Below, one piece after another: positions 1 through 19,163 of a DNA stretch of 24,417 nucleotides. How positions within the stretch are numbered: position 1 is the first letter of the stretch; each line of letters begins with the position of its first letter. The notes below the pieces were generated by a model that searched no databases, was not told the origin of the DNA, and worked only from the letters and a program-made list of their open reading frames with translations. Both the position numbers and the translations under genes were made by a program. The stretch lies in IMG/VR virus record IMGVR_UViG_3300035698_015603, positions 1-24,417 of that record. One strand, 5' to 3'. The DNA comes from a virus.

Positions 1-856
1 CGCTCGCATTGTACGGGGCTTCCGTCACATCGATCGCCCCGCGTTTTTGGGCGAGAAGGCTCGCCCGTCGGGCCGGTGCCGTCGCGTCGGCCAGAATCGT
101 TTGCGCCCAGGCAGAAAACCCGAGATCGGTCAGGGCGTTGGCGTCGGCGGCATGGGCGATCCAGGACTGGCCCCAATCGGAGAAGCCCAGGTCCGTCAGG
201 CCCTGAGCGATCTCGGGGTCCGTGGGACTGCCGGCGACGATGCCCGTCCAACTGGCCGACAGCGTTGCATCCGTCGTCGTGCCCATCGAGACATCGCCAT
301 CGTCGTCGAAGCCGAGGAAGCCGCTGGCCCGTGTCACCGAGGCCGGGACATTCATATCGCGGGTGCCGCCTTCGCTCTCGGGGATCAGCAGGCTCCGCTC
401 GATCAGGCGGCGGAGGTGCTGGTTCTGGAGGGCCAGCTTATCGATCGCATCCTCCAGGGCGCCCAAGCGCATATAGCCCGTGCCGTCGAGATCCGTCGTC
501 TGGGTCAACGGTGGGGCCGCCAGCAGATGGACCGTGACGCCGGTGGCCGGGGCGGTGACGAAGGTCACGGTCCCGCCGGGCGTCGTACTGGCGTCGGTGT
601 AGTCGCCGTCCCCGTCGTTGTCGGCCATCGTGTACGCGCTGTTGAGCACCTGAAGGCTCTCGGCGCCGGTAGCGGTCGTCCGGCACACAACGCGGAGATC
701 CGTGGTCGCGTAGATCGGGAAGGCGAAGACGAAGGCCACCGTCGCGCCGTCCCCGCTGTAGCTAACGGAGTACGCGGTGGTACTGACCTCGGCGGCCGCC
801 GGGATGGCGGCCAGAGTGACAAGGGTTAGAAGGGTGAGAAGGGTGCGGGGTCTCAT
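1..856 (-). CDS. T7-type tail fibre protein, N-terminal part, with signal peptide (3' end outside window)
   Basis: The reading frame is open to the window edge; 285 codons are visible. The start is set by GGAG five bases upstream of ATG, directly after the stop of the giant internal protein. Residues about 1-22 form a clean Sec-type signal peptide: basic start (MRPR), a Leu/Thr/Val core and an AAA-E cleavage site. Residues about 26-165 match the T7 gp17 N-terminal tail-binding domain: SYSGDGATVAFVFAFP, an extended beta pattern, GGTVTFVTAPATGVTV, PLTQTTDL, then a helical LEDAIDKLALQNQHLRR stretch typical of trimeric fibre stems. A DNDGDGDYTDA loop at 79-89 resembles a calcium-binding loop. Residues about 220-270 hold two DLGFS.W.Q repeats of the kind common in fibre shafts. 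The role is host receptor binding. The receptor-binding tip is not in the window. The fibre assignment is firm; actual export is inference. Confidence 0.88.
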   Translation of the reverse strand, partial: MRPRTLLTLLTLVTLAAIPAAAEVSTTAYSVSYSGDGATVAFVFAFPIYATTDLRVVCRTTATGAESLQVLNSAYTMADNDGDGDYTDASTTPGGTVTFVTAPATGVTVHLLAAPPLTQTTDLDGTGYMRLGALEDAIDKLALQNQHLRRLIERSLLIPESEGGTRDMNVPASVTRASGFLGFDDDGDVSMGTTTDATLSASWTGIVAGSPTDPEIAQGLTDLGFSDWGQSWIAHAADANALTDLGFSAWAQTILADATAPARRASLLAQKRGAIDVTEAPYNAS

Positions 857-857
857 G

Positions 858-3800
858 TCATCTCCTTCGCTTGGCCGCGAGGCGCTTGGCGGCGGCCATG
901 GTCTTGGGTTTCTTCGATTCCGGCTCTTTCGGCGGTCCGCCGACGAGGTACCATGCGTTTTTGTTCGTCACCGTCTGGACCACCCGGCGGGGGGCAGAGT
1001 AGGGGACGCCGGCGACGATCGCCAGGCCCTCGAGCGTTCGGCGAATCTCCTGGCTGGGGTCGTCCCCTTCGCGGATCGCGGCGACCGCATCGAACGGCGC
1101 AGTCACCAGGTCGGCGATCGCCCGGACGCCCGGGATGTCGGTATCGGCTCCGTAGCCCTGATGCCAACTGGAGAGCATCTTACCGATGATCGGAATGGTC
1201 GCGAGGAACTGCTGGGCGTGGGCGTCGTAGGCGTCCTCGGCAAAACCCTCGGGGTCGTCCCACGGGGCCCTCGGCAGCCGGCGATTGCTCACCATCCAGA
1301 TCGCCCAGGCCATCGTCGAGAGGCTCGCCATCGTGTAGAACGCCTTCTGGTACTGGCTGCTCTTCATGTAGACAGACAGATCGTATCCCATATTGAAGAG
1401 CTGATTGAGCTGGCGCGTGAAGAGGTTCATCCAGTTCATCAGTTCCGAGCCCGTCTTGAACAGTTGCGGCAAGTCTTTGGTATAGGTCGTCGGCTGCGTC
1501 CGCGCGACACTGCCGTCCGCCTGGCGGATCGCTTCGGATTCGTTTCCTTCAGGGTACGCCTCATCACGCGTCTCGGCCATGGCCCGATCGTAGACGGCCT
1601 TCCACGCAATCACCCGGCCCATCGTATCGAACATCCGAATGCCGTCGAAGAGCACGTCCACGTGCCGCTTGCTGAATTCGGAAACCTTATCGAGCAGGCC
1701 GTCACCCACCGGCGACAGGCGGCGCATCTCCTCCAGCTCGCGCATCACCGTGACATCTTCAATCTGGGGCGATCGCTGGCGCACGAACTCGATCGTCGCG
1801 AGTGGATTCGTGAAGAACTGGACGTTCGCCCCGAACATCGCCTCGACGCCCGAGTCGGCCAGGGCCAGCATGAAGCTCACCGGCTGGCGCAGCATGACGA
1901 CCAGATTGCCGCCGAGATAGGCGACGGCCGTATTGCGCCGCAGTAGGGCACTGGCGCGATCGAAGAAGTCGTAGTGCCGGAACGTCTTCGGGTCGGCGAT
2001 GCTGTTGACGTGCTGCTGGAGCACCTTGAACCAGGTCGTCCCGTAGTTGTCCAGAATCGAATCTTTGAATAGCTTATCCCGCATCAGACGCTGCGTCAGT
2101 TTGAGCGTCGGCTCGACGTTGATGTAGTGCTCCTGTTTGGCAACTTGCTCGGCCCAGAGGGTCCAGCCGTCCAGGCGGATCGGGGCCTGATAGTCCTCGC
2201 TGAGGTCCTGGATGCGGGACTTCATAAAGCCGCTCTCGGCGTGGACCTTGCCCAGTGCCAGGCGACGGATCGCCGCCTCCTGCTGCTCTTCGGCCAGTGC
2301 GGTATAAGTGATCTCCATGCGCCGCATCGGCGTATAGTTTTTCTCCATCGGCGGGGGGTCCGCGATCGGCTCGATCTCCATGAACGCATCGAAGAGGCGG
2401 TCCTGATTGTCGCCATAGTCCTCGATCAAAAAGTCCGCGATGGTCTTGAGCTTCGGATCGCCATCGACCATCTTCTGGATCTGCCCGAATAGCAGCGAGA
2501 CATCGTTCATTTCCCACGTGCCATAGTTGCCGAACGTCACCGCCAACGTCGAAAGTGGATTGCGGAGGAAGTTGTACAGACTGACGATCTGCTCGACGCT
2601 CAGTCGCTCGCTATTCCAGAGCGTCCGCCGGGCGTGCAGATCCTCCAGTGACATGCCCACCGATTCCAGCATCGCCTTGCCCGCCGCCATGCGCCGTCGC
2701 GTGTGGCGGATCTCTTCGTTCGTCCCGCGATCGATCTGATTGTAGAACAAATCGTAGAAGAAGTCGCCGAGCTTGCCGAAGCTGCCCTTGGCCCCATCCA
2801 TCCAGTCCAGCATGCGAGCGAGCTGCAACGCCTGAGCGATCCCCCCCATCAGCTTTCGCCTGGGGCCCTCCTTAACGAAATTGGTAATCGATTCGCCGGC
2901 GCTTCGCAACCGATGGCCGCCCTTGCGGGCCTGAAAGACGCCAATGTCCCGCACGCTCTCGTATTCGGCCTGGAGGTTCTTTTCGATCAGCTCGGCCTTG
3001 AGCCTTCCCTGTTTCCGCAGGCGAGCCACCTCGGCCGCCACCTCCGACAGTTTCGCCACCGTCATCTCGCCCACCGACATCTGATTAATCTGCTTCATCA
3101 GGTCGGCCGGGATCGTCGCATCCGCGTTGGCCTCCAGGTACTCGAGTGTCGCCATGCGCTGGTGGATGGTCTTAGCCAGGCGGATCGCGGGATCGATCCC
3201 CCGCTGAATGTGGCGAATCGCCTGTCGCTGCTCGCGGGCGATGGTCCGACCGGCGGGCTTTCTGATGGCGGCGATCCACTGGTCGATCTGGGCCCTCAGT
3301 TCCTTGCGGGCCTTGGCCCGGGCCCGCTGCTGGCGGTAGTTCTCACTGGCCTTGGCCGTCGCCTCCTCGGCCCCGGCGGTGTAGGCGTCGCGCACCATCC
3401 CGCGCGCCCGGGCCCGCACGCGGGTATCGGCGGCTTCCAGTTGGACCAGTTCACCCACCGTCCGCTGCCTCTCCTCGGCCAGTGTCCGGTCGCGAGGATT
3501 GGCGTTCTCGATCTCGACGATCGCCTTGAGCTGCTCGGGGGTCAGCTTGGCATCCTTATCGCTCAGTGCCTCGGCCGCCATTAGATCGATCAGCTCGGCG
3601 TTTCGGCTCGCATCGTAGTCGGCCTTGAGCCGCCGGTGCATCTGGCGGGGCGATTCGGCGACCTCCAGATGATAGCGCTTCATCCAGGCGGAATTGCGAT
3701 CACCCAGCTCTTCGCCTAATTTGCTGTAGAATTCGTCGAACGTCATCGAGCCCGGATGCCGCTCGGGCGGTGGGGCGACGATCAGATGCTCCCCGATCAG

Positions 3801-6800
3801 GAGCTCGGCGATATCGGCCTGATCGATCTCGTAGCCGGCCGCCGTCTCGGCCAATGCGGCGTTGATGCTATCGACGTCGTCCCCCTCGATCAGCCGCCGC
3901 CGCTTCTCGGCCAGTAGCACGAGGTCGGGCGGATCGCTCAGAACGGCATCGTCCAGCGCCTTTTCGTTCAGTCCGCCGCCGGCACCGGCCCTATCGCCCT
4001 CGATCGCCGCCTGCCAGCTCGCCATGAACTCATCGAAACTGAACTCGAAGCCCTGCTCTTGTGCCGCATCGTCCCAGGCCTGGCCCTGGCTCTTGGTATA
4101 GGTGACGTGGCGGCCCATCGCCATATTGTAGCCGGGGGTCCCGGGCTTGCCCGTGTAGCCCTCGACGTCGCCCTTATACTTGGCCTCGAAGAAGTACGTG
4201 ATATCCGGATCGATCCGGCGGCCCTCGAACCAGGCGTCGGCCTGGGCAAATTCCAGGTACACCTCATGCCGGCGAATCGCCTTCTCCGTCTTGGCCAGTT
4301 CGCGGCGCCGGGCGGATGGATCGTCACGGGCGGCCTTGAGCTTGGCGCGAAGCCCTTCCCGAATCAAGTCGGCCAGTTTTTCCTTCGTCCCGCCGGCCGA
4401 GATCCCCAGCTTCTTGGCCTTTTTCTGCATCTGGCGGTAGGAAAGCTCACCGAGGTCCGCACCGTCCGGCGCATTGATCGGATCGATCGGCGTCAGCTCG
4501 TAGTCGTACGCCGTACCGGGCGATGCCTGCCCGCCGATCTTTTCAAACACGGGGCGGTAGTCGTAGGCAGGCTTCGTTCGATCTGTGTGTCGCGCGGCCC
4601 CCCAGTCTGTGTCGTAGTGGAAAGACTTGGCCGCCGGGAACTTGGCTTTTACAAGATTGCGAATCCGCGTTTCAGCCGCCTCAACCCTTTTGTATTCTGC
4701 CAGATGTTCGTCGCCCGCATTGTCAGGGGCCTGCTCAAGATAAGCGGCTGTCGCCTCCCCCGTCACCAGATCAACAAACACCTCGTAGGGCATCTCCGAG
4801 ATATCGGAGTCGAGAAAGTGGAGCACGCGATCCAGTCTATCCGATTCGCCCGCCTCCTGCAACTGCAAGAGAGCGACTTGTTTCTCCGAGAATACGATAT
4901 AGGAGTCCTCTGCCTCGGGAAACCACTTCTTGAACTCTTTATCCGACAGCCGATCCAGGTCGATGCCCGCCTCGTGCGCCTTGACGACGTTTGCGGTGGT
5001 CATCCCCTCGTATCGATTCAGGTAGACGATTGCATCCTTCCCCTTGGCTTTGGCCGACGCAATCTTCTTTTTCCAATTTCCGCCCATGTCTTTGCATCGC
5101 CTGGGGTTCTTGACGTCGAGATGAGCAGCCAGAATCTTACTGTCCTCGCCGGCCCGACGCATCTTGGCTTGTGCCATTGAGCCGAAGTGAATTTCTGGGC
5201 CCGTCAGAGCATCCGTCGTTGCCTGGGCGCCATGATAGAAGACCGATCCCCCCGCCTCCTGCAACTCCCAATCGAACTGATCCATCTGCTCGGTCGCGGT
5301 GCCGGGTCTTACCTGATTGGCCGCGAGGCCGGCCTCAACTTGTTCTAGCCAGTTGGGCGGCAGACCCTCGGGGGGGTATAAGGCCCAATTTGCCGTTTGA
5401 TCGAGCGCGATACGCACAGGGCCATCGTCTCGGTCCACTGCCGCGTCGAACGATGTGACCTCCAGCCCGGTCACGGGATAGGGCAGAGCCGCGACCATAC
5501 GCCGCAGTGCGTCTTGTTGGGGTGAGGTCAAGGGGCCCGCGACATCGAGGGTCAGCAGGTTAAAATCCCCCTCAATCGTCTCTGCGTTTTTGATCAGGGT
5601 GACGCCCAGGCCGCCACGCAAGAGCACTGTGCCCAAAGCCTCGTAGCCGGGAAGAATGTCTTCATACCAAGCCGCTGGGGCGGCGATGCCGACGGATTCC
5701 CCGGATGGATCTATAAAGGCGGCGACGTTATCAGTCACCTCAGTAATAATTTCATCGACAGTCGGCGCGACCACGTCGGGGGTCTGTCCATGGTTCACTG
5801 GCATGTCTTCGTAAATAGTTGGAACGCCCTCGTCACCCTCCATCGTGCCAACCCACTCAATCTCCGTCGGTCGAAACGAGTCACCTTGGCCCGGTCGTCG
5901 CAGTGTTTCCCCCGTTCCGGGGGGGGCGGCCATCCCTTCGCCGGCGGATCGAAACTTCTCAACTGTGACCGGTGGGACGGCCAGTTGTTCCCCCGGCTCG
6001 GCGGGGCCGGCCACGCCTTCGCCGACGGATCGGTACAGGGCCTCGATCTCGGTCGGTAGGGCCGCACCGCGTAGTTTGCGGATGCGTCCGATCAATTTTC
6101 GCAGACTGGCCCGCACGCGATCGTACGTCTGCTGCACGGAATCATACAGTTCTCGCACGCCGCCGGCCCGTTCGTGCAATTTGGCACTGAAAAAGAAGTC
6201 GCGACCCTCCTGGGCGAAATGCTCGCGCACGGAGCGCTCGTCCGTTCCCGCTTCGTGCCACGCTTCGAACCGTCCGCGATCGGCCAGGCTCAGTCGGTCC
6301 CAGGCCCGATGATACCATTCGTGGACCACCGTCCCGGCATCGTGGCCGTGATAGAGCTTGACCGCCGTCTGAAGGACGTCACCGACCAGCCCGCTTCGAT
6401 GTTCGCCGGTGACCAGGTGCGGCGATTCGGGATCCAGCCCTTCGGCGGCAATCACCTCGGCCGTCGCGAACTTCACCTCGGCACTCACCTCGAGCGCGGA
6501 GTCCGCATCGAATTCCGGATCGATCTCCTGCAGGAGGTGGCTGGCGATCCGGTGAACGCCCGGCGTCACGCGACCGTCGGCGAGCGCTTCATCGATCCCC
6601 GCCTGGGCCCGGCCCTGGGCCTGTTCTTTGAGGGCTTCGGTGACGTAATCGACCGGGGCCTCCGTCGGCCGCTCGGGGACGGCGGGGCCGCTCTCGACCG
6701 CCATGGTCACCTCGCGCGGGGCCTTGGCCGGCCCCTTAGCATCGTCTGCCTTTGCCGGTCCGGCAGTCTTGCCGGGCGCAGGCGTTGCAGCGTCTGCAGG

Positions 6801-8153
6801 CTTGGCCGTCTGGACCGCGGAGCCAATGGCCGTCGGCAGAACGCCCATCGTAGCGAAGGCATAACCGGATTTCTCGGCGACCTCACGATAGACCTCCTTG
6901 ACCTCGGCCCAGGTCCGGGCATCCAGCTCGCGGCCGCCGAGCTCTTCCTGGACGTACCGCGAGAACTCCGAGAAGACCAGGTTGCTCGATTCCTGGAGCA
7001 ATTCCTGCGCGGTCTCGGCCGTAATGAACGTCCCGTACTGAGCCGTGAATCGGGCCGCCAGTTCCGCCAGGGCCCCGCTGGCTCGCAGTCGGGCCGCCAC
7101 GACCCGCCCGGCGTTCTTCACGATGCCTTTGCCGCCCGGCAGCATCCGCAGCGCTGTGCCCGCCTGCAGCATCTCGATGGCCCCATTCAAAACGCCCACG
7201 CCCCAAGCCGCCGGGACCGCGATGGCCGGATCGATTCCGCGATCCAGCATCTCGATCAGTGCCATGCCCCCCTCGATCTCACCGGCGCGAACGCCCCCGG
7301 CAATCCCACCGCCCAGTTTCACGCCGCCCCAGAAGGCCGCCGGAATCGCCGCCTCTTCGCCGATCGTCGGACTCATCACCGAGACGGCCGTCATCGCGGT
7401 CCCGGCCACGGCCCCCCCGAGCATCGCGCCCCAGCCGCCGCGTTCGGCCACGTCCAGCATCATCGGCAGCATCTCGGCCAATTCCGACGGGCCCTTCTCG
7501 TACCAGTCGCGCAGGTCGCCGAGATAGTCGCCCCGGACCTGTTTTCGCAAGTCGGCGATCTTTGCGAGGCTCTTTTCCCAATCGCCCCGGCCCTGCATCA
7601 GCGCGGCCGCCAGGTCCGCCTGGGCCACCATCAGCTTACCGTTGTGATAGCGATCCTTGATGCGACCCCACATCGTCGCCGCCCCCTCGGGCCGATCGAT
7701 GCCGCTGAAGGCCTTGAGCATATCGAAGTTCAGGTCCGCCTTCTCGGGGGGGATGTTGTGGATGAGGCTGAAATAGGTCACCGCCTTCATGCGACCGTCG
7801 ACGTCGGGGATCTGCTCCGTCTTGATGCCGCGCACGCGATACCAGTCGGGATCCAGCAGTTGCTTGTCGTCGCCGCCGGTGGCCAGCAGGGTCTCCAGGT
7901 CCATGCCCGCGAACACGCTTTGCTTGAAGACACTCGGGTCGGATCTCGCCAGGTCGCTCGGCCACATCGGCACGAGCTCGCGGTCGGGGACATCGAAGCC
8001 CCGCGTCGCCGTGCGACCGGCCAGCAAATCGTCACGGCTAATAGGACCGCCCGGCCGATCGTGCCGCACGGCGGAGAGTCCGCTCGCCAGATCCTTTCGC
8101 GACAGGCGACGTGGGGCGGCTACTTGTACAGGTCTGTCCACTTGCCCCTCCAT
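858..8153 (-). CDS. Giant polyvalent internal virion protein (gp16 position) with HExxH, ADP-ribosyltransferase-like and SAP-like segments
   Basis: This protein of 2431 residues sits where T7 encodes gp16, after gp14-like and gp15-like genes and before the fibre, so it is probably ejected into the host. Features in order: Gly/Ala-rich hydrophobic region about 241-345, possibly membrane-inserting; Ala/Pro/Lys linker about 450-500; HEWYH zinc-protease motif at 611-615 within a helical region about 530-705; imperfect tandem linker repeat about 705-765; ADP-ribosyltransferase-like domain about 970-1095 (FYHGA, IHFGSMAQA, DAIVYLNRYE, DSYIVF); SAP-like motif about 1236-1270; long Arg/Ala/Glu coiled coil about 1480-1760; hydrophobic segments in the C-terminal third; very basic C-terminus. 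No lytic transglycosylase domain is evident, unlike T7 gp16. The first ATG (8153) has a poor SD. GTG at 8141, five bases after GGAGG, is a credible alternative. The gp15-like gene overlaps the start. Enzyme activities are inferred from motifs only. Confidence 0.85.
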   Translation of the reverse strand: MEGQVDRPVQVAAPRRLSRKDLASGLSAVRHDRPGGPISRDDLLAGRTATRGFDVPDRELVPMWPSDLARSDPSVFKQSVFAGMDLETLLATGGDDKQLLDPDWYRVRGIKTEQIPDVDGRMKAVTYFSLIHNIPPEKADLNFDMLKAFSGIDRPEGAATMWGRIKDRYHNGKLMVAQADLAAALMQGRGDWEKSLAKIADLRKQVRGDYLGDLRDWYEKGPSELAEMLPMMLDVAERGGWGAMLGGAVAGTAMTAVSVMSPTIGEEAAIPAAFWGGVKLGGGIAGGVRAGEIEGGMALIEMLDRGIDPAIAVPAAWGVGVLNGAIEMLQAGTALRMLPGGKGIVKNAGRVVAARLRASGALAELAARFTAQYGTFITAETAQELLQESSNLVFSEFSRYVQEELGGRELDARTWAEVKEVYREVAEKSGYAFATMGVLPTAIGSAVQTAKPADAATPAPGKTAGPAKADDAKGPAKAPREVTMAVESGPAVPERPTEAPVDYVTEALKEQAQGRAQAGIDEALADGRVTPGVHRIASHLLQEIDPEFDADSALEVSAEVKFATAEVIAAEGLDPESPHLVTGEHRSGLVGDVLQTAVKLYHGHDAGTVVHEWYHRAWDRLSLADRGRFEAWHEAGTDERSVREHFAQEGRDFFFSAKLHERAGGVRELYDSVQQTYDRVRASLRKLIGRIRKLRGAALPTEIEALYRSVGEGVAGPAEPGEQLAVPPVTVEKFRSAGEGMAAPPGTGETLRRPGQGDSFRPTEIEWVGTMEGDEGVPTIYEDMPVNHGQTPDVVAPTVDEIITEVTDNVAAFIDPSGESVGIAAPAAWYEDILPGYEALGTVLLRGGLGVTLIKNAETIEGDFNLLTLDVAGPLTSPQQDALRRMVAALPYPVTGLEVTSFDAAVDRDDGPVRIALDQTANWALYPPEGLPPNWLEQVEAGLAANQVRPGTATEQMDQFDWELQEAGGSVFYHGAQATTDALTGPEIHFGSMAQAKMRRAGEDSKILAAHLDVKNPRRCKDMGGNWKKKIASAKAKGKDAIVYLNRYEGMTTANVVKAHEAGIDLDRLSDKEFKKWFPEAEDSYIVFSEKQVALLQLQEAGESDRLDRVLHFLDSDISEMPYEVFVDLVTGEATAAYLEQAPDNAGDEHLAEYKRVEAAETRIRNLVKAKFPAAKSFHYDTDWGAARHTDRTKPAYDYRPVFEKIGGQASPGTAYDYELTPIDPINAPDGADLGELSYRQMQKKAKKLGISAGGTKEKLADLIREGLRAKLKAARDDPSARRRELAKTEKAIRRHEVYLEFAQADAWFEGRRIDPDITYFFEAKYKGDVEGYTGKPGTPGYNMAMGRHVTYTKSQGQAWDDAAQEQGFEFSFDEFMASWQAAIEGDRAGAGGGLNEKALDDAVLSDPPDLVLLAEKRRRLIEGDDVDSINAALAETAAGYEIDQADIAELLIGEHLIVAPPPERHPGSMTFDEFYSKLGEELGDRNSAWMKRYHLEVAESPRQMHRRLKADYDASRNAELIDLMAAEALSDKDAKLTPEQLKAIVEIENANPRDRTLAEERQRTVGELVQLEAADTRVRARARGMVRDAYTAGAEEATAKASENYRQQRARAKARKELRAQIDQWIAAIRKPAGRTIAREQRQAIRHIQRGIDPAIRLAKTIHQRMATLEYLEANADATIPADLMKQINQMSVGEMTVAKLSEVAAEVARLRKQGRLKAELIEKNLQAEYESVRDIGVFQARKGGHRLRSAGESITNFVKEGPRRKLMGGIAQALQLARMLDWMDGAKGSFGKLGDFFYDLFYNQIDRGTNEEIRHTRRRMAAGKAMLESVGMSLEDLHARRTLWNSERLSVEQIVSLYNFLRNPLSTLAVTFGNYGTWEMNDVSLLFGQIQKMVDGDPKLKTIADFLIEDYGDNQDRLFDAFMEIEPIADPPPMEKNYTPMRRMEITYTALAEEQQEAAIRRLALGKVHAESGFMKSRIQDLSEDYQAPIRLDGWTLWAEQVAKQEHYINVEPTLKLTQRLMRDKLFKDSILDNYGTTWFKVLQQHVNSIADPKTFRHYDFFDRASALLRRNTAVAYLGGNLVVMLRQPVSFMLALADSGVEAMFGANVQFFTNPLATIEFVRQRSPQIEDVTVMRELEEMRRLSPVGDGLLDKVSEFSKRHVDVLFDGIRMFDTMGRVIAWKAVYDRAMAETRDEAYPEGNESEAIRQADGSVARTQPTTYTKDLPQLFKTGSELMNWMNLFTRQLNQLFNMGYDLSVYMKSSQYQKAFYTMASLSTMAWAIWMVSNRRLPRAPWDDPEGFAEDAYDAHAQQFLATIPIIGKMLSSWHQGYGADTDIPGVRAIADLVTAPFDAVAAIREGDDPSQEIRRTLEGLAIVAGVPYSAPRRVVQTVTNKNAWYLVGGPPKEPESKKPKTMAAAKRLAAKRRR
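5877..6038 (-). repeat. Two-copy imperfect 81-nt tandem repeat inside the giant internal protein gene
   Basis: Two adjacent copies offset by 81 nt (27 codons) are recognisable. For example, ccttcgccggcggatcg starts at 5935 and ccttcgccgacggatcg at 6016; cagt(g/t)tt-rich runs before cccc recur at about 5901 and 5982. The repeat encodes Pro/Gly-rich linker units (GEGVAGPAEPGE... and GEGMAAPPGTGE...) between the HExxH region and the ADP-ribosyltransferase-like region. Being a multiple of three, it keeps the frame. The outer boundaries are approximate. Confidence 0.65.
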
Positions 8154-9739
8154 TTCTCGTAGTAGACATCCCGCTCGTTCGGATCGAGGATGTCGAGATA
8201 GGTCTGCTCGAAGGCCTCGGCCGTCTCGGGCTCGACATTCGGATTCGCCAACGGGCGGAGCACGAGATCCCCGAGCGATTGCAGTTGGGGCTCGGCCGGC
8301 AGGCCCGCCGGCATCGGCTGGATATCGCCGTAGCCCGAACGCGAGGCGGCGGAGGCACTGTTCTCGCCGATCGCCGTCAGGTTCGACCAGAGCGCGCTCC
8401 AGAAGCCGCTCGGCTTCGCCACGGGCATCGTAGCAGCGAAGGCGTCGTTGAGCTGCTCATCGGTCGCGTCGGGGTTTTTGGCGAAGTCCCAGAATTGTTC
8501 CTTGGCCTGATGGTACGCCGTCTCGCTGGCCCGATCGCCGACGGGTCCAAACGTCCCGAACACCTCGTAATGGTCGTCGAGCGCCCGCGCCAGCATCTTC
8601 ACCGTCGGGCGGGCCAGGGGATCGGCGGGGTCGGTCGTCGCGTAGAGCTGGGCGCTGAACTGCTCGTACGTCGCGGGCCTCAGTTTGTGGGTCTTCGTGC
8701 GCAGATAGCTCAGCGCCCCGGCTCGCTCACTCGGATCATCCATCGCGGCGTTCACCTTGGCGAGCGCCTGCTGGTAGACGTCCGGATCGTTCATCGTCGG
8801 CGGGCCGTTAACGGCGATCGCCCGGGCGGCCTTGGCGACGGCCGGCTCGATCTGATCGTCCCGAATCCGCTGGGCCAGGGTCGTGACATCGAGCTTGCCC
8901 TCATAGGCATCGGCGATCAGGGCATCGGACGCCTGCTCTTTCGCCTCGACGGCCAGGCGGGTCTGCCGGGCCGATTCATCGTGGACGAAGCTCGCCAGGT
9001 CCGCCTTGATCCCACTGGCCTCATCGAGATCGAGGCCCCAGTCCTGTTGAAACTCGGGATCGCTGAGCAATTCGGCCGCCGCCGGCCATCCCGATTGACG
9101 CGCCACATCCTGAAGGTAGTCCTGGACGGCATCACGACGGGCGTCGATCGCCGCCTGAATCACGGCCCCGCCGATCCGGTGACGGTCGGACGCCGAATAG
9201 CGATCCCGGTACTGTTCGAACAATTCGCTCGCGGCGCCCACCTGATCGCTGCCCGCCAGGTCGAGAATCTCGGTGGTAATGTCTTCCAGCTCCAGGCCCT
9301 CCAGCGAGCCCGTCGTCTGATCGGCCCAGCTCGGGGCCGCCGCGTTGTAGCGCACTTCGAAGGCCGCCCGGGCATCGGTCGATAGCGGCTCGGCCAGACG
9401 CTCGAATTCGGCGTTGACCCGGTCGGGATATTGCTTGAGCTCCGCCTCGTAGCCGGTGACGTTCTGGCCCGTCTGGTCGTCCAGTGAGATCGCCGCCAGT
9501 TCGTCACGCCGCTCGGGCAACTGGCGCAGGTAGCCGATCTGATAGCTCTCCATCTGCCGCCACGCCCGACTGGCCGCCAGGCCGTCGGATCGTGCGATCC
9601 GCTTTTCGCCTGCCCGCTGGAGGCTGGCCCCGGCCCCGGCGATCGCCTGACCGATCCCGGCGGCCGCCCGGGCCCCGAAGCCCGCATACTGTTGCGTGCT
9701 CACCGTCGGGCCGGTCTGTTTATAGAGTTGTGGGACCAT
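8120..9739 (-). CDS. Internal virion (ejection) protein, gp15 position
   Basis: This protein of 539 residues is assigned mainly by position between the gp14-like and gp16-like genes, and by composition: long, soluble, almost wholly alpha-helical, acidic, with no signal peptide or transmembrane segment. T7 gp15 is longer (747 aa), so this would be a shorter relative. The N-terminus has a Gly/Ala-rich segment (AGFGARAAAGIGQAIAGAGASL) typical of phage internal or injected proteins; the rest holds repeated helical segments rich in D, E, A and R. The role is probably as part of the inner core and of the ejection tube through the periplasm. The start has AGGA nine bases upstream. The end overlaps the start of the giant protein gene by 34 nt. 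No catalytic motif is seen. Confidence 0.75.
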   Translation of the reverse strand: MVPQLYKQTGPTVSTQQYAGFGARAAAGIGQAIAGAGASLQRAGEKRIARSDGLAASRAWRQMESYQIGYLRQLPERRDELAAISLDDQTGQNVTGYEAELKQYPDRVNAEFERLAEPLSTDARAAFEVRYNAAAPSWADQTTGSLEGLELEDITTEILDLAGSDQVGAASELFEQYRDRYSASDRHRIGGAVIQAAIDARRDAVQDYLQDVARQSGWPAAAELLSDPEFQQDWGLDLDEASGIKADLASFVHDESARQTRLAVEAKEQASDALIADAYEGKLDVTTLAQRIRDDQIEPAVAKAARAIAVNGPPTMNDPDVYQQALAKVNAAMDDPSERAGALSYLRTKTHKLRPATYEQFSAQLYATTDPADPLARPTVKMLARALDDHYEVFGTFGPVGDRASETAYHQAKEQFWDFAKNPDATDEQLNDAFAATMPVAKPSGFWSALWSNLTAIGENSASAASRSGYGDIQPMPAGLPAEPQLQSLGDLVLRPLANPNVEPETAEAFEQTYLDILDPNERDVYYEKWRGKWTDLYK

Positions 9740-9751
9740 CTGGCAAATTCC

Positions 9752-10246
9752 TTAGAAACTGCTGAAGGCACCGATGATGCCGGATCTTTTCGCCGCGGAG
9801 GCGGCCTTGCGCATTTGCCTGGCGTCGGCGTGCAGGGCGGAGACTTCGTTGCGGAAGTTCCGGGCGGCCATCATGCGATCCAGGACCGCCGCCTGATTGC
9901 TTCGCCGCATCAGATGGCCCGGGGCGCCGTCGAGTGTCACGCCGGCGGCCCCGAAGATCGCCCGCTGCGTGGCCATCGCCCGTCGCCGCTGTTCGTTGCC
10001 CTGGATCTGCGTCCAGATTCCCTGCTGGCGGACCTGCTCGGCCTCCAGCTCTTTGGCCTTGGCCGAGGCCTTCAGACTCCGCGACTGCTGAAAACCGGAA
10101 TAGATCGAGCCCACCGCCCCGGCGACCGCTCCGACAGCCGCCATCGCGCCGCCGGCGCCGCCACCGCCACCGCCACCGCTGCCGCCGCCGGGTTGCATGC
10201 TGATTTTGCCCGTGTCCGGATTATAGACGTTGATTGAGCCGGCCAT
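9752..10246 (-). CDS. Internal virion protein, gp14-like
   Basis: A protein of 164 residues (T7 gp14 is 196). After a short polar start it has a run of Gly at about 20-31 and then a hydrophobic Gly/Ala/Val segment about 33-50 (AMAAVGAVAGAVGSIYSGF), followed by a long basic helical part rich in K, A, R, E and Q. A hydrophobic Gly/Ala segment followed by a basic helix is typical of the small internal core protein that inserts in the outer membrane on ejection. The GAAGVTLDGAPGHLM motif is characteristic of these podovirus proteins. The start ATG shares one base with the tubular B stop (TGATG), so translation is probably coupled. It lies just before the gp15-position gene. Confidence 0.8.
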   Translation of the reverse strand: MAGSINVYNPDTGKISMQPGGGSGGGGGGGAGGAMAAVGAVAGAVGSIYSGFQQSRSLKASAKAKELEAEQVRQQGIWTQIQGNEQRRRAMATQRAIFGAAGVTLDGAPGHLMRRSNQAAVLDRMMAARNFRNEVSALHADARQMRKAASAAKRSGIIGAFSSF

Positions 10247-12627
10247 CAGTGGATCTCCAGAGTGGGGACAATGGCCCGGACGGTCATCGGCCAGGGTTGC
10301 TTTTGGATGATGGATAGCTCGGCCGCGTCGGTCGAATAGCTCGTCTCAATGCCGATCCGCCGGTCGCCGGTAAACAGATCCGGCACGCCGCCGAGGATGG
10401 GGGCCCCCTCGATCCGCCACGAGGGCTCGAACAGATGATCGCTGTCGGGCCCGACGCTCGCGCCGAGGGTTTGGTAGAAACTGATCACGGCGTGATTGAT
10501 CGCCTTCGGCCGGCCCCAGGTCGCCCCCTGCTGGCCGGCCAGGTCGTAGCGGACCGTCCGCAGCGTCGAGGTGTAGGCCAGGCCGAGGTGGACGGTGGTC
10601 GCACTATTGGCCAGTGTCACCTGCCCCTCGGCCACGGTCCCGGTCACCGGCCCACCGTCGGCCAGGCCGGCGATCGAGCACGCTTCCAAATGCCCGATGC
10701 CGGCAAAGGTCGTCGCGGCCGAGTCATCGTAGCTGATGGCCGAATCCACGAATACCTGATCGCACGGATCATCGCCACAGGCCCACGGCGAGAGGTATTC
10801 GATATAGCGGACGGTATTGGCGTCCACGGTCCGGGCGACGGCCAGCCAGAGCTCATCCTCGCTCTCGGTGCCGCTGCCGGGGACGACGCAGAGACTCTCG
10901 ACCACACCGTCACCGCCCAGGCTGTGCGTGCCCCACGCGACGACCTGATAGTTGCGATCGTAGGTGAAGCCGATCAGCGTACCGTCCGCCCGGGCCGCCC
11001 AGAGCAGGGTGTAGGGCTGATTGGTCCAGGCCATCGCGGTCAGGCCGCCGGTCGTGACATGCTCGGCGAACAGGGTCAGGTCCGGGGCGACCAGGGCATC
11101 CGCTTCGTAGGAGTACAGCACCTCGCGCAACTTGCGGCCGCCGCGCTGAAGGACCAGCAGTAGATTGTCCGCCACCACGGGGGCGACATCCGCACAGCCG
11201 ATCGCCAGGGTATTGGTGATCGTCGGTAAGTTGTTCGGGGTAATGCCGATCGATTCATCCATCGGGCCCACCTCGAAGAGCGAGCCGCTGGTCCCGGCGA
11301 TCAGGCCGCGCCGACGCTGCGCCGCCAGCCAGAGGATCGGGTCCTGTTCCGCACGGCCGAGCTGATACCCGAACGCATCGGCATCCGTCCCTTCGCCCAC
11401 GTCGAAGCTGTCGTATTCGCCCGTCGCCGAGAACCAGAGATTCAGCGGCTGGTGCGTCGTACTCGCGACCACCAGGCGATCGTTGTAGGTCGCGACGGCG
11501 GAGGGATAGCCGCGAGCCGGGCTCCAGGCCCCCTCGCTCCATCGCACGGTCGCGTCCGTCGAGGCCAGGGTCCGGACGACCGTCGCGGTGACGTTGCAGG
11601 GGTCGGTGTAGGCCGTGATCTCGACCGCCCCGGTGTGCATCGTGGCGTGGACCCAGAGATTGTACGTCACGCTGCCCGAGGTATAGGCCGTCAGGGCCGC
11701 GCGGACCAGCAGGTCCTGGCCGGTGTCGTTATCGTAGACGGTCTCGGTGGTCGAGCTGCTGCCGGTGGAACTGAACACGGTATAGGCCGCCCAGGTCACG
11801 CCGTCGTCGTACGAGATCTGGAGCTCGGCCGTCCCGACCCAATTGCCCGAGAGGGTCCACTGAAAGTTGTTGGTCGATTGGAGGATGAGCTCATCGCTCG
11901 GCGTATTGATATCGTCGATCTCGTTGAAGGTCCCATTGCTCGATTGCACCTCCACGAGATCGCGCAGCCGCCAGAGTCCGCCGACGTCGTCGGCCTCGAA
12001 CGTGGCGGCCGAGGCGACCAGGTTGACGTCACCGGTGACGGCATCGGCCGCGATCGTGGCGCCGGTGAGATTCTCATCGAGGAACGGGCCATCGGTAATC
12101 GGGGCATCGGCGATCGACCAGTCGTTATGATCGGTCCGCACCAATTTCTGGGGCCAGTCGGTGCCGTCCAATAGCCACATGACATCGGCATTCTGGACGA
12201 CCTGGATCTCGTCGATTTCGTTGGCGTCGAACGGCGTCACCAGCTCGTAGATCGAGTCATCGTCGTCGGTCACGCGCCCGTGCTCGCGGCAGACCTGCAT
12301 CGTCAGATCGGTGAACGCCAGAACGTAGACATCGTCGGCCGAGTAGCGAAACGGGATCAGTCGGCAGGCCTGATTGGCGTCCGTGGGCCCCACGTAGACC
12401 GTCCCCGGCCGGCGGACGGCGGGGCCCTGGGGGATCGCCACCATATTGGTCAGTTCCGCCAGGCACGTATAGTACCGCTCGGCGTCGATGCGGGCCGCCG
12501 CCAGGGGCGACAGCTCACCGCCGGTAAAACTCGACTGCATCAGCGTCATCGACGTGGCCGAGGCCACCGTCGCCAGAAACACACAGAGCAGAAGTGAAAG
12601 ATCGTGGCTGTTGGCTCTTCGTTTCAT
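10246..12627 (-). CDS. Tail tubular protein B (gp12-like nozzle) with N-terminal signal peptide
   Basis: 793 residues, essentially the T7 gp12 length (794). Family features run throughout: SSFTGGELSPLAAARIDAERYYTCLAEL at the normal N-terminus, PAVRRPGTVYVG, LIPFRYS, YNDRLVVAST...LWFSATGEYDSF, GRKLREVLYSYEAD, DLTLFAEHV and DGTLIGFTYDR. It forms the distal tail nozzle with the tubular A ring. The first 26 residues are extra relative to the expected family start: KRR, a Leu-rich core (LSLLLCVFLATV) and an ASA cleavage site. The start at 12627 overlaps the tubular A stop by four bases (ATGA), which supports it. The internal ATG at 12549, which would give the normal family N-terminus, has no SD. 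Family assignment is firm; the signal peptide depends on the start. Confidence 0.9.
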   Translation of the reverse strand: MKRRANSHDLSLLLCVFLATVASATSMTLMQSSFTGGELSPLAAARIDAERYYTCLAELTNMVAIPQGPAVRRPGTVYVGPTDANQACRLIPFRYSADDVYVLAFTDLTMQVCREHGRVTDDDDSIYELVTPFDANEIDEIQVVQNADVMWLLDGTDWPQKLVRTDHNDWSIADAPITDGPFLDENLTGATIAADAVTGDVNLVASAATFEADDVGGLWRLRDLVEVQSSNGTFNEIDDINTPSDELILQSTNNFQWTLSGNWVGTAELQISYDDGVTWAAYTVFSSTGSSSTTETVYDNDTGQDLLVRAALTAYTSGSVTYNLWVHATMHTGAVEITAYTDPCNVTATVVRTLASTDATVRWSEGAWSPARGYPSAVATYNDRLVVASTTHQPLNLWFSATGEYDSFDVGEGTDADAFGYQLGRAEQDPILWLAAQRRRGLIAGTSGSLFEVGPMDESIGITPNNLPTITNTLAIGCADVAPVVADNLLLVLQRGGRKLREVLYSYEADALVAPDLTLFAEHVTTGGLTAMAWTNQPYTLLWAARADGTLIGFTYDRNYQVVAWGTHSLGGDGVVESLCVVPGSGTESEDELWLAVARTVDANTVRYIEYLSPWACGDDPCDQVFVDSAISYDDSAATTFAGIGHLEACSIAGLADGGPVTGTVAEGQVTLANSATTVHLGLAYTSTLRTVRYDLAGQQGATWGRPKAINHAVISFYQTLGASVGPDSDHLFEPSWRIEGAPILGGVPDLFTGDRRIGIETSYSTDAAELSIIQKQPWPMTVRAIVPTLEIH

Positions 12628-13208
12628 CGGCGGCTGTTCGTCCAGGTCGTTGCTTGGATCGTTTCGGGGCTCTGCTCGGCCGAGTCGACGAATCGGCCCA
12701 GGGGCAGGCAGACGCGCTCGTACCAGATCTTGAGTTGCTCCTGCTGGGTCTCGCTGCTCGGCAGGGCCATCGAGAGAAACGCCCCCATCCGCAGGACCAA
12801 CGCCTCGACGAGACAGGCGTCGTAGAGCGACGTATCGTTAGTCCGCCGAATGTAGAGGATCTTCACCTCGGTCTCATCGGTATAGAGCAGCCGCCCGGCG
12901 GGGGTCCATCGGCTGTCCAGATCCTCCATACGTATCACACGCAGGCAGTCGGGCGGCAGCGAGTAGGCGTAGTCGTAGCCCCAGGCGGGCGTCGTGGTCA
13001 GGGCGGCCGAGATATCCGCCGGGACTTGCAGGCACTTCCAGTCGTGGGACCGCGCGACCACGTCGAACGTCAGCGGCCAATAGAGCTTACAGAGGCGGGC
13101 CTCTTTCGGCACCGTCTCGTCATCGCTGAATTCCAGTTCGTGGATCTGCTGGCTGGATCCCGCCTGGCCGAGGCTCATATTACAGATGTCGATAATCGAA
13201 CAGCTCAT
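12624..13208 (-). CDS. Tail tubular protein A (gp11-like)
   Basis: 194 residues, against 196 in T7 gp11. This adaptor ring joins the portal to the tail nozzle. Recognisable family pattern: SIIDICNMSLGQAG at the N-terminus, KEARLCKLYWPLTFDVVARSHDWKC, then a short beta stretch with WGYDYAYSLPPDCLRVIRM (the aromatic-rich 'lPaDclRv' signature), and a C-terminal helix with MGAFLSMALPSSETQQEQL. A longer upstream frame is open, but the start at 13208 is chosen because GGAG lies six bases before the ATG and the family N-terminus begins there. It overlaps tubular B by four bases. There is no signal peptide, in contrast to its partner. Confidence 0.9.
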   Translation of the reverse strand: MSCSIIDICNMSLGQAGSSQQIHELEFSDDETVPKEARLCKLYWPLTFDVVARSHDWKCLQVPADISAALTTTPAWGYDYAYSLPPDCLRVIRMEDLDSRWTPAGRLLYTDETEVKILYIRRTNDTSLYDACLVEALVLRMGAFLSMALPSSETQQEQLKIWYERVCLPLGRFVDSAEQSPETIQATTWTNSRR

Positions 13209-13221
13209 CAGGTTCTCCTGG

Positions 13222-13965
13222 CTAGGGGTAGCGACTGCGGAGGCCGCCGCCGGCGTATCGGCTGCGGATTCCGACGGGCCTGTGCGGCCTCGCATCGACT
13301 TCGGCTTCGGCGGTGAAGATGGAGCCCGGATCGGCCGCCAGGGCCGCCAGTTGCTCGGTCGAAAGAAGGGCGTCGAATAGATACGCCCGCGTGACGGTAC
13401 AGTGCCCTCCGATCCCGATCGCGCTGGTGGTACTGTCCGTCTTGGGACTGGCTCCCGCTGCTGCCGACGCAATCTCGGTGCCGTCACTGTAGGCCCTCGC
13501 TGTATCCGCTACGGTGTCCCAGGCCAGGCTCAGCATCATCTCCGACGCCACCTCGGTCGTCGTGAGCGTCGCCACCGTGTAGCCCGTGCCATTGTGATTG
13601 AGCTTGAAATAGGCATTGGTGCTGTAGCGCTGCCAGGCGAGCGTGCTGTCGCCGATGTACAGGACCGACTGCCAGGCGTCCAGCGTCACGCCATCGTGCC
13701 ACAGGCAGACGGTATAGGCCGACCCGAAACTGTTGTGCCAGCTTTGAAAGCTCTGCGTAATCGGCGTCGCAAAGCCCGTCGCCCCCTCGGTGGTCCCGAC
13801 CATCGTACCGGTCCCGGCGATATTGTCGCCATCGTCGGCCCGGTTGTCGAAGACGTAGACGCCCAGCATATGGCTGTACAGGTCGTGGCCCGTATCGAGC
13901 GTATGGGCCAGGGCCATCGAGCCCCAGCAGAGCACCGCCATTGCCATCAGCAGGAGAGATCGCAT
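13222..13965 (-). CDS. LamG/concanavalin A-like domain protein with signal peptide
   Basis: A protein of 247 residues. Residues about 1-20 are a strong Sec signal peptide (MRSLLLMAMAVLCW, ALA before HTLD). The rest follows the LamG/ConA-like jelly-roll pattern: LGVYVFDNRADDG near the start, YTVCLWHDGV, LSLAWDTVADTARAYSDGTEIASA, and the terminal TRAYLFDALLSTEQLAALAADPGSIF motif that ends many LamG domains. Such domains bind carbohydrate or protein. In a tail cluster it could be a minor tail or adhesin subunit, or a secreted lectin. The start abuts the previous stop (TAGATG) with only a GGTGG upstream, so coupling is likely. The C-terminus ends in two RSRY motifs separated by a Gly run. The fold call is moderately sure; the role is inference. 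Confidence 0.72.
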   Translation of the reverse strand: MRSLLLMAMAVLCWGSMALAHTLDTGHDLYSHMLGVYVFDNRADDGDNIAGTGTMVGTTEGATGFATPITQSFQSWHNSFGSAYTVCLWHDGVTLDAWQSVLYIGDSTLAWQRYSTNAYFKLNHNGTGYTVATLTTTEVASEMMLSLAWDTVADTARAYSDGTEIASAAAGASPKTDSTTSAIGIGGHCTVTRAYLFDALLSTEQLAALAADPGSIFTAEAEVDARPHRPVGIRSRYAGGGLRSRYP

Positions 13966-14589
13966 CTAATACCACCGCACATCCGCATAGAGGGTCGTCG
14001 CCGCCTCGCAGGTCGTGGCGATCAGCAGCACGCGCTTATAGCCTCGCAGGTCCACGCGGTAGACGGCAATCCGATCGGCGGCCGAGTCGACGATACTGTT
14101 GGCGTCGGCCGTCCCGCTCAGGACGTAGTGCACGGCGGTCATCGTATCACAGAAGACGTTGCTGTGTGGGCCCACCTGCTTGCCGCCGGTCAGCGTGAGA
14201 ATCCCGCCCAGCATGAAGTGGTCCGCCTGCGTCCGGCTGCCCGTGGCCGTATCGAGATAGACGTTGTCGGCCGCGACCCAGAGCTCGACGACGTAGGCGT
14301 TGGCGTCGGCCGTGCATTGGAACCGCATCTCCAGGCCGGTGACATCGTTGGGCACCGTCCAGAGGATCGAGTTGGCGTCGGTCAGGGCACTGGCGCTGGC
14401 GTAGTCGCGATCCGCTACCGCGAGCGTCGCGTTGGCATCGGTGATCGTGCCGATCTCCAGCCAGCCGGCGGTCGGCGTCACGATCTTGACCGGGGTGACC
14501 GGCGTATCCACGCGCGTCCGCTCGATCGCCATCAGCATCGGCAGGGACGCCAGGATCAGGACGGTACAAATTAACGGCAGTCGTTTCAT
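13966..14589 (-). CDS. Signal-peptide-bearing protein of unknown function in the tail cluster
   Basis: A protein of 207 residues with no family I recognise. Residues about 1-21 are a signal peptide (MKRLPL, hydrophobic core, LMA). The mature part is predicted mostly beta, rich in T, A, D and V, like phage tail or decoration proteins. A T/A-DAN motif occurs four times (residues 51, 71, 95 and 162), mostly followed by a hydrophobic strand, suggesting repeated beta-turns. The start is fixed by GAGG seven bases upstream of ATG, 10 nt after the glycosyltransferase gene. It ends in TAG directly before the LamG gene ATG. It is probably a partner of the LamG protein, or a surface-exposed virion component. 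Confidence 0.7.
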   Translation of the reverse strand: MKRLPLICTVLILASLPMLMAIERTRVDTPVTPVKIVTPTAGWLEIGTITDANATLAVADRDYASASALTDANSILWTVPNDVTGLEMRFQCTADANAYVVELWVAADNVYLDTATGSRTQADHFMLGGILTLTGGKQVGPHSNVFCDTMTAVHYVLSGTADANSIVDSAADRIAVYRVDLRGYKRVLLIATTCEAATTLYADVRWY

Positions 14590-14599
14590 TTTGGCACCT

Positions 14600-15193
14600 C
14601 TAAACAGGATGTTGACAGATGACATTCGGGTGAGCGACGATCTCGATCCCGGCCGCCCGGGCGTGATCGCAGAAATATTCATCGTCCGATCGAACCAGCA
14701 GTTCCCGATCGTCGGGCGTCGCATGGTGAATCTCGGTCAAAAACCACGGCCAGGGCAGGGCGTCGACGAGGGCCCGGCGAATCAGCAGGCACGCGGTCCC
14801 GGCTCGATCGACGGTGAAGGGCCCCGGCGGCAATGGCTCCTGGCGAGGGCGATAGCCGACGCGATCGGTGACGTTCCAGCAGGGGACGCCGTTCTGATCG
14901 ATGGGGCAGAGGCCGGCGGCGATCGGGACATTCAAATCGATCAGGCGGGCGAGGGCATCGGGCGGTGGCTTCACGTCGGCATCGAGGAAGAGGATCGCCT
15001 CGGCCTCCCGGTGACACTCGACCAGGAAGTTTCGCTGGGCATCGATGTAATTGCCCGGCACCACGTCCCAGGTCAATTGCCCCCAGACCGAGCCCGCCGC
15101 CCGGCGAAGCGCCATCTGGAACTGAACCCACTGGGCCGTCTGGACTGCGACCTTCAGGTCCGTTCGCACACAAGTCGCGATGACGATATTCAT
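14600..15193 (-). CDS. GT-A type glycosyltransferase, second of a tandem pair
   Basis: A protein of 197 residues starting at MNIVIATC, set by a four-base ATGA overlap with the upstream glycosyltransferase. The pattern is a GT-A fold: beta-alpha-beta N-terminus, RNFLVECHREAEAILFLDADV with the metal-binding DAD at 71-73, PPPDALARLIDLNVPIAAGLCP after it, GTACLLIRRALVDAL, then SDDEYFCDHARAAGI (acidic catalytic motif) and a final ICQH metal-ligand His. It aligns motif by motif with the product of the preceding gene, so the two are diverged tandem paralogues. It would transfer a sugar from a nucleotide-sugar donor. Substrate unknown: virion proteins, host surface glycan or DNA base are all possible. 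There is no signal peptide, so it acts in the cytoplasm. Confidence 0.8.
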   Translation of the reverse strand: MNIVIATCVRTDLKVAVQTAQWVQFQMALRRAAGSVWGQLTWDVVPGNYIDAQRNFLVECHREAEAILFLDADVKPPPDALARLIDLNVPIAAGLCPIDQNGVPCWNVTDRVGYRPRQEPLPPGPFTVDRAGTACLLIRRALVDALPWPWFLTEIHHATPDDRELLVRSDDEYFCDHARAAGIEIVAHPNVICQHPV

Positions 15194-15858
15194 AGGGCCA
15201 CCCGATTGAAATGGTCGCAGGTGCAGGTGACATCGACGAACAACGGATAGCCGCACTCGATCGCGCGGTGAGCGAAATAGACGTCCTCACCGTAGACCAC
15301 GTCGCGGTCCTGATCATCGAGCGGCTGATAGAGCACATCGTACCAGGGCCAGCCGATCGCTCCGAACACGTCCCAGCGACTGAGCACACAGGAGCCGGCC
15401 ACCGCCTCGACCTCGATCAAGGGATAGCCCGCCTCTTCGCCCAGCTCGATTCGCGGATCGACGGCGGTACACCATTGGCCATCCCGCTTGAAGCTCCACA
15501 TTTTGCAGCGCCCGATCTGCATCGGGTAGATCCCGGCGACGATGGGCTTATCGTGGGCCAGCAGTCGCTCGATCATATCGGGCTGCGGCAGGACATCGGA
15601 ATCCAGTGTCAGGATATGCGTATAGGGCCGCTTGGCCCGCGCGGCGATCTGTATGATGACGTTGCGGCCCCGCTCGCAGGCGTTGCTGGGGCTGAACATG
15701 AATTCGACGTCCAGTCGCGTCGCGCCGGGCTGCCAGGCCAGGCGGTCGGCCCACTGGATCGTTCGGATATCGCCCCTCATCTCCGTACCGATCGGCATGG
15801 CGATCAGGATGCGAGGTCCGTGGTGCCGGCGACATCTTAGTTTTCGTTTCGTTGTCAT
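15190..15858 (-). CDS. GT-A type (family 2-like) glycosyltransferase, first of a tandem pair
   Basis: A protein of 222 residues from the ATG at 15858, chosen because GGAG lies nine bases upstream; ATG codons at 15873 and 15891 are open but lack a good SD. GT-A features: RILIAMP strand, SNACERGRNVIIQIAARAK, THILTLDSDV with the DSD metal site at 86-88, PQPDMIERLLAHDKPIVAGIYP, EAVAGSCVLSRWDVF, YGEDVYFAHRAIECGYPLF with the ED catalytic pair, and a terminal CDHF His. This layout is common in small phage-encoded glycosyltransferases. It overlaps its paralogue by four bases, so the pair is co-translated, perhaps as two sequential transferases. It lies between the capsid decoration gene and the tail genes, pointing to virion modification, but the target is unknown. 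Confidence 0.83.
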   Translation of the reverse strand: MTTKRKLRCRRHHGPRILIAMPIGTEMRGDIRTIQWADRLAWQPGATRLDVEFMFSPSNACERGRNVIIQIAARAKRPYTHILTLDSDVLPQPDMIERLLAHDKPIVAGIYPMQIGRCKMWSFKRDGQWCTAVDPRIELGEEAGYPLIEVEAVAGSCVLSRWDVFGAIGWPWYDVLYQPLDDQDRDVVYGEDVYFAHRAIECGYPLFVDVTCTCDHFNRVAL

Positions 15859-15890
15859 GGTGGCTTGCTCCATTTTCAAAGGGTGCCCCA

Positions 15891-15927
15891 CGGGCGCCGG
15901 GTCGCAAGAACAAGCCGGCGACGCCCG
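15891..15927 (-). promoter_or_regulatory. Intergenic RNA hairpin between decoration protein and glycosyltransferase genes
   Basis: On the minus strand CGGGCGTCG (15927-15919) can pair with CGGCGCCCG (15899-15891), a 9-bp stem with one G-U and a 19-nt loop. No T-run follows, so it is not a standard intrinsic terminator. A role in RNA processing, or in separating capsid from glycosyltransferase expression, is possible. It lies in the 93-nt gap before the glycosyltransferase start. Confidence 0.4.
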
Positions 15928-18957: not shown

Positions 18958-19163
18958 CAGGCTTTCTCCTGTCTGTCGGCCGGCTGAGCGGCCATGTTTT
19001 GAATGATATATTCGACCACGGCCAGGCCACCACAGCGGTAGCTGGTGCTGTGCGGATTGTCGGCCACAAAAGGATTGCCCCCGAATCGGGCATTGAGATC
19101 GGCGACGATCAGGCCGCCCATCTCGGTCGCGGCGAATTGGCGATAGGCCTCGGCCAGCTCCAT
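18957..19163 (-). CDS. Small Bbp19-like phage protein
   Basis: A protein of 68 residues, MELAEAYRQF..., directly following the portal gene with a one-base overlap (TGATG), which fixes the start. The pattern (F-x-G-LIVADLNARFG, then NPF..DNPHSTSYRCGGLAVVEYIIQNM) resembles the Bbp19-like proteins encoded next to podovirus portals, where 'tp.G..vL.dL', an 'F..dP' turn and 'r.G.r.vv..I...l' recur. The usual function is unknown; a small virion or assembly protein is likely. The next gene also starts on the stop codon of this one. The family call is by motif and position. Confidence 0.65.
   Translation of the reverse strand: MELAEAYRQFAATEMGGLIVADLNARFGGNPFVADNPHSTSYRCGGLAVVEYIIQNMAAQPADRQEKA

Follow-up and report, generated by a model that had tools for sequence, protein, structure and literature searches.

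Assembly of tailed phages is usually viewed as a cytoplasmic process. The question raised by this locus is why the nozzle, the fibre and two putative appendage proteins of a T7-like phage begin with Sec-type signal peptides, and what such signals would imply for the building of its virion.

The window and its virion module

The window, that is, the whole 24,417-bp virus record that was analyzed, corresponds to one phage. Its virion module lies on the minus strand in the order terminase, portal, scaffold, capsid, two glycosyltransferase-like genes, a 207-aa protein, a 247-aa protein, adaptor, nozzle, internal proteins, and fibre. The portal, or head-tail connector (19163-20764; phrog_332, E 3e-91), the major capsid protein (16470-17405; PF19821, E 1e-61), and the adaptor, or tubular A (12624-13208; phrog_394, E 2e-31), all lack a signal. 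The nozzle, or tubular B (10246-12627, 793 aa), matches phrog_376 with E 2e-176, and a family profile relates it to the solved nozzle 8CK1 with E 1.6e-198. Its AlphaFold model, with a mean pLDDT of 88, was aligned by Foldseek with 8CK1 (TM 0.77) and with T7 gp12 (6R21, TM 0.56). The fibre (1-856) is cut at the window edge, matches phrog_1640 (E 4e-13) and other tail fibre PHROGs, and has homologues in Pelagibacter phages. These matches bear out the original prediction that fibre and tubular B are T7-type tail proteins. Between capsid and adaptor lie two putative appendage genes, for the 207-aa protein (13966-14589), which has no family match, and the 247-aa protein (13222-13965), which has no match in Pfam, PHROG, or PDB; the earlier description of the latter as a LamG protein with a signal is therefore borne out for the signal, and its LamG label is not confirmed.

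Other features of the module were also recorded. The two glycosyltransferase-like genes (14600-15891), the second a weak Anp1 match, are located between a putative decoration protein and the appendage genes, and similar genes occupy the same place in the related contigs L002 and L141. The largest gene (858-8153) encodes a 2431-aa internal virion protein with an uncertain start that overlaps the gene before it. A 6-kb contig from another sample (L135, IMGVR_UViG_3300025697_002110) encodes a portal 100% identical to that of the window and stems from this phage or from one very close to it.

Signal peptides of the four proteins

The signals were assigned with a home-made rule for Sec/signal peptidase I substrates that demands a positive n-region, an uncharged hydrophobic 10-mer, and small residues at -3/-1; cleavage sites, marked below by a slash, are our own reading. 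In the fibre (start 856), the signal covers residues 1-22 (791-856, minus strand) and reads MRPRTLLTLLTLVTLAAIPAAA/EVSTT, with the site AAA/EV and a Shine-Dalgarno-like AAGGAG upstream. The nozzle (start 12627) carries MKRRANSHDLSLLLCVFLATVASA/TSMTLMQSS, residues 1-24 (12556-12627, minus strand), with the site ASA/TS. For the 247-aa protein (start 13965), whose ATG lies right after the upstream stop, the signal is MRSLLLMAMAVLCWGSMALA/HTL (13906-13965, minus strand; ALA/HT), and for the 207-aa protein (start 14589) it is MKRLPLICTVLILASLPMLMA/IER (14527-14589, minus strand; LMA/IE), preceded by GAGGTG. It should be noted that the A-x-A-type site once described for all four is present in the fibre, nozzle, and 247-aa protein, while the 207-aa protein has a weaker -3 residue, Leu.

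Exactly these four proteins are positive by the rule and the other 18 of the 22 curated window proteins are negative, so that the presence of Sec-type signals on the proteins originally singled out is strongly supported. None was detected by the same rule in the window adaptor, capsid, putative decoration, scaffold, portal, or internal proteins, in agreement with the earlier remark that tubular A, capsid, decoration, and internal proteins are free of them. When the nucleotides of each N-terminal segment were shuffled, only 8-16 of 2000 sequences (<1%) were open and passed the rule, and 10 of 387 out-of-frame decoy ORFs passed it. Inspection of the four peptides by eye revealed neither the lipobox cysteine of lipoproteins (SPII) nor the Tat motif SRRxFLK; an RR pair occurs in the nozzle, but the residues after it depart from the Tat consensus.

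Position of the signals and choice of start codon

The peptides of fibre and nozzle stand immediately ahead of the usual N-terminus of each family. Family profiles begin at residue 24 of the window fibre and residue 27 of the window nozzle, so that the peptide is an added N-terminal module in both, as had been claimed. In the nozzle model, a helix at residues 7-22 is separated by a break from the domain, whose first strand is at residue 25. Most nozzle homologues in IMG/VR start with MARVA, MAKAS, or similar at the mature position of the window nozzle.

The reading depends on translation from the upstream start codons. The nozzle ATG at 12627 overlaps the adaptor stop, and a second ATG at 12549 is located exactly at the family N-terminus. 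No clear Shine-Dalgarno motif was found upstream of 12627, and a gene caller based on codon usage, written for this work, prefers 12549 for the nozzle and 13917 for the 247-aa protein. Little weight was given to this preference because hydrophobic segments have a codon bias of their own. An error in the start codon is an unlikely cause of the signals, since the same genes in relatives bear different, equally clear signals, some with no start near the old N-terminus; a tubular B that begins at 12549, the alternative raised with the original prediction, does not explain the signals of the relatives. In the window fibre and in the nozzles of L124 and L089, no start codon occurs within eight codons of the family N-terminus.

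Signals in relatives

Signals of unrelated sequence are present on both nozzle and fibre in L002, L088, L028, L111/G013, and L124/G014. For example, the nozzle of L002, about 60% identical to that of the window, begins MNTMRLGCMVFLWIASAVLA/QT, and its fibre MKTIFALLCVLCALCGSTLA/EV. As such comparisons show, the signals are conserved as a function and not as a sequence. The interval between capsid and adaptor displays the same property: N-terminal signals are carried by each of the 1106-, 339-, and 410-aa proteins of L002, by each of the 989-, 402-, 186-, and 203-aa proteins of L088, by a 968-aa protein of L028, and by a 1148-aa protein of G014. LamG and right-handed beta-helix domains could be recognized among these tagged appendages, together with a weak match to PKD. 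Alignment of the 410-aa protein of L002 with the 402-aa protein of L088 gave no convincing relation, and unrelated appendages thus seem to have been provided with signals. Untagged exceptions in the appendage region are a 486-aa protein of G013 (L131:325-1782) and a 121-aa protein of L028. The peptides are therefore conserved as a group, relatives of the same clade being tagged on nozzle, fibre, and most appendages.

The adaptor of L028 is 340 aa long (L097:6848-7867, G003), with about 120 extra residues before the phrog_394 domain and no signal.

Cysteine content is higher in the nozzle, fibre, capsid, and portal of the signal-bearing phages than in other phages of the family, and not in the adaptor. 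Raised cysteine is a possible mark of periplasmic folding, but in these phages it extends to the untagged capsid and portal.

Survey, nozzle tree, and a test by portal sequence

A wider survey was performed by profile searches, in which every start close to the expected N-terminus was judged by one decision rule and counts were made per distinct contig. Signals were found on 8 of 99 nozzles and 6 of 49 fibres, and on none of 93 adaptors, 65 capsids, 43 portals, or 4 copies of one internal protein. Among the eight nozzles, that of L111 was scored by hand since its n-region is long, its rule score of 1.65 being below the threshold of 2.0. In the 37 contigs with both nozzle and fibre, both were tagged in six, neither in 31, and there was no mixed case (Fisher 4e-7, ignoring kinship). 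Loci whose nozzle lacks a signal contain almost no tagged genes by the same rule. In this group of uncultured short-tailed phages, the tag is thus limited to the outer tail parts, namely nozzle, fibre, and appendages, as against head and adaptor, and the boundary between tagged and untagged proteins falls between adaptor and nozzle, which is a joint in T7 tail assembly.

The nozzle tree groups the window with L002, L088, L111, and L028 in a single clade (SH-aLRT 99) and places L124, L051, and L089 apart from it. The signal label changes at least four times on this tree, while by the starred branches alone a single origin stays compatible. The tagged nozzle of L089 (L089:2930-5743) and the untagged nozzle of L101 (L101:1966-4631) are 65% identical and differ in the signal, which points to a recent gain or loss; the nozzle frame of L101 is broken in two, and the quality of that contig is uncertain.

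An independent set of relatives was gathered by portal sequence alone, with the window portal as query. One new contig, L141/G015, had at least 45% portal identity together with a complete nozzle, and it carries signals on nozzle (MAGIKRVICFLLAWLFAGSTWG/ATSV) and fibre (MRRSYLLTFLASYLLTFPPLPAIA/EITT), as predicted. Further signals are located on a 177-aa protein next to its adaptor and a 215-aa protein after its fibre. In the remainder of the portal-gathered set, a signal was found in 0 of 39 other nozzles, 0 of 44 adaptors, 0 of 61 capsids, and 0 of 78 portals.

Comparison with known systems

The T7 gp11-gp12-gp17 tail (PMC6702177; PDB 6R21) and the tail of the Carin 1 phage (PDB 8CK1) have the same nozzle family and fold as the window phage, and they share with it the gene order adaptor-nozzle-internal proteins-fibre and the type of fibre N-terminal domain. 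The nozzle, fibre, and appendages of the window phage are tagged, whereas surveyed T7-like homologues start at the mature position. By homology, the phage has a T7-like tail machine, and by targeting a variant of it: lack of an export signal, a usual though not formally defining trait of such tails, was tested for and does not apply here.

The closest cultured kin of nozzle and fibre are the Pelagibacter podoviruses (HTVC010P, HTVC035P, and relatives), with about 30-37% identity and the same module layout; the HTVC035P nozzle starts with MARVAV and has no signal. In the other records listed, the nozzle match opens near window residues 18-32, where the signal ends or beyond that point. No cultured phage with a tagged nozzle occurs among the INPHARED and plasmid matches listed, all of which start at or near the mature N-terminus; an apparent exception in HTVC035P among these matches proved to be a misjoined piece. 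In Manatee Spring podovirus (MW202898), a 906-aa protein adjacent to the tail has a clear signal (L007:20905-23625), and the nozzle and first fibre have none. A host search by scanning genome contigs returned only a distant Rhodobacteraceae MAG at 28% identity, and a hunch from the peptide style that the host might be of planctomycete type was not supported.

Export signals on virion proteins before assembly are familiar from filamentous phages (inoviruses), the coat proteins of which are inserted by Sec or YidC. Unlike the window phage, inoviruses have no capsid, packaging motor, or tail, are extruded without lysis, and share no homology with the window proteins. Phage endolysins and spanins exported by Sec also use the host pathway, but they are lysis enzymes and not virion parts, whereas the tagged proteins of the window are structural by homology. 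No report of an exported nozzle, fibre, or other distal tail part in tailed phages was found in the open-access literature, which agrees with the initial statement that no described system of this kind was known. Relatives and survey together support the wider claim of a real export signal, added before normal tail proteins, absent from their head neighbours, and lacking a known precedent.

Proposed assembly route and alternative explanations

The original prediction offered export of tail parts with unusual assembly, a membrane anchor, and a second secreted role. The first is best supported, a choice among the three that we infer from the evidence above. It is rather probable that the distal tail parts are Sec-exported, cleaved pre-proteins and that their joining to cytoplasmic heads takes place at the time of lysis, later, or at a docking site on the membrane; export and cleavage themselves, like the time and place of joining, are what we infer from the signals. 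The cytoplasm would be the site where heads with portal, internal proteins, and adaptor are formed and filled with DNA. Nozzle, fibre, and appendage or adhesin proteins would be made with cleavable signal peptides and cross the inner membrane via Sec. Removal of the signal would restore the normal N-terminus of each family, and the distal parts would fold in the periplasm. The adaptor-nozzle joint is where the two halves would then come together, either upon rupture of the inner membrane during lysis or at a docking site on the membrane.

T7 tail assembly begins with the adaptor, to which the nozzle is added distally, followed by the fibres, and gates in the nozzle retain the packaged DNA (PMC6702177). 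Heads without a nozzle would therefore need another plug or late addition of the adaptor, and DNA retention is the main difficulty for split assembly. Head-tail joining in other tailed phages can run in vitro without cell factors, which makes joining after lysis plausible.

The DNA-retention problem would be eased by docking at the membrane, as in an unlikely alternative in which the peptides are retained as signal-anchors. Nozzle and fibre would then be tethered to the inner membrane, where heads dock, or the hydrophobic N-termini would be kept as part of the virion and exert an effect on membranes during infection. The L111 fibre peptide, a long hydrophobic stretch, is compatible with an anchor. 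However, in most of the peptides a short hydrophobic core is closed by small -3/-1 residues precisely where the family N-terminus begins, and unrelated appendages bear the same type of peptide. Moreover, residues 1-45 of the T7 nozzle are part of the adaptor-binding platform (PMC6702177), and a helix left uncleaved would obstruct it.

A second, secreted role, for example the covering of receptors against superinfection or loss of progeny, is less likely again. Virions would use untagged forms from internal starts, and the window nozzle has an ATG at the appropriate point, 12549, but the absence of nearby start codons in the window fibre and the L124 and L089 nozzles leaves no untagged form evident for these proteins. 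The appendage domains (LamG, beta-helix, PKD) are adhesin-like; the nozzle is no obvious receptor mask. Since a single nozzle gene is present in each genome searched, the tagged protein must serve as the virion nozzle as well, unless an untagged form is also produced. Finally, that the genes begin internally and that the hydrophobic segments further upstream are not translated or arose by chance is very improbable, whatever the codon model and the missing Shine-Dalgarno motif before 12627 suggest, given the overlap of the 12627 ATG with the adaptor stop, the rarity of passing shuffled segments, the recurrence of different signals on the same genes with full nozzle-fibre concordance, and the predicted signals found in the portal-selected L141/G015.

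Implications

Returning to export and split assembly, a more general form is proposed tentatively. Assembly may be trans-membrane, with a cytoplasmic head half and a periplasmic receptor-binding half that come together only once the membrane has opened; a complete virion would then at no time be present inside the cell. Such a mode may have arisen or disappeared repeatedly in T7-like phages, perhaps in association with certain hosts. If this is true, a virion could be built from two compartments, and these phages would represent a natural split-assembly system. The absence of signal peptides from phage-encoded variable proteins has been taken as support for phage origin (PMC6199706). The finding, if true, would also matter for annotation that treats a signal peptide as the mark of a host gene.
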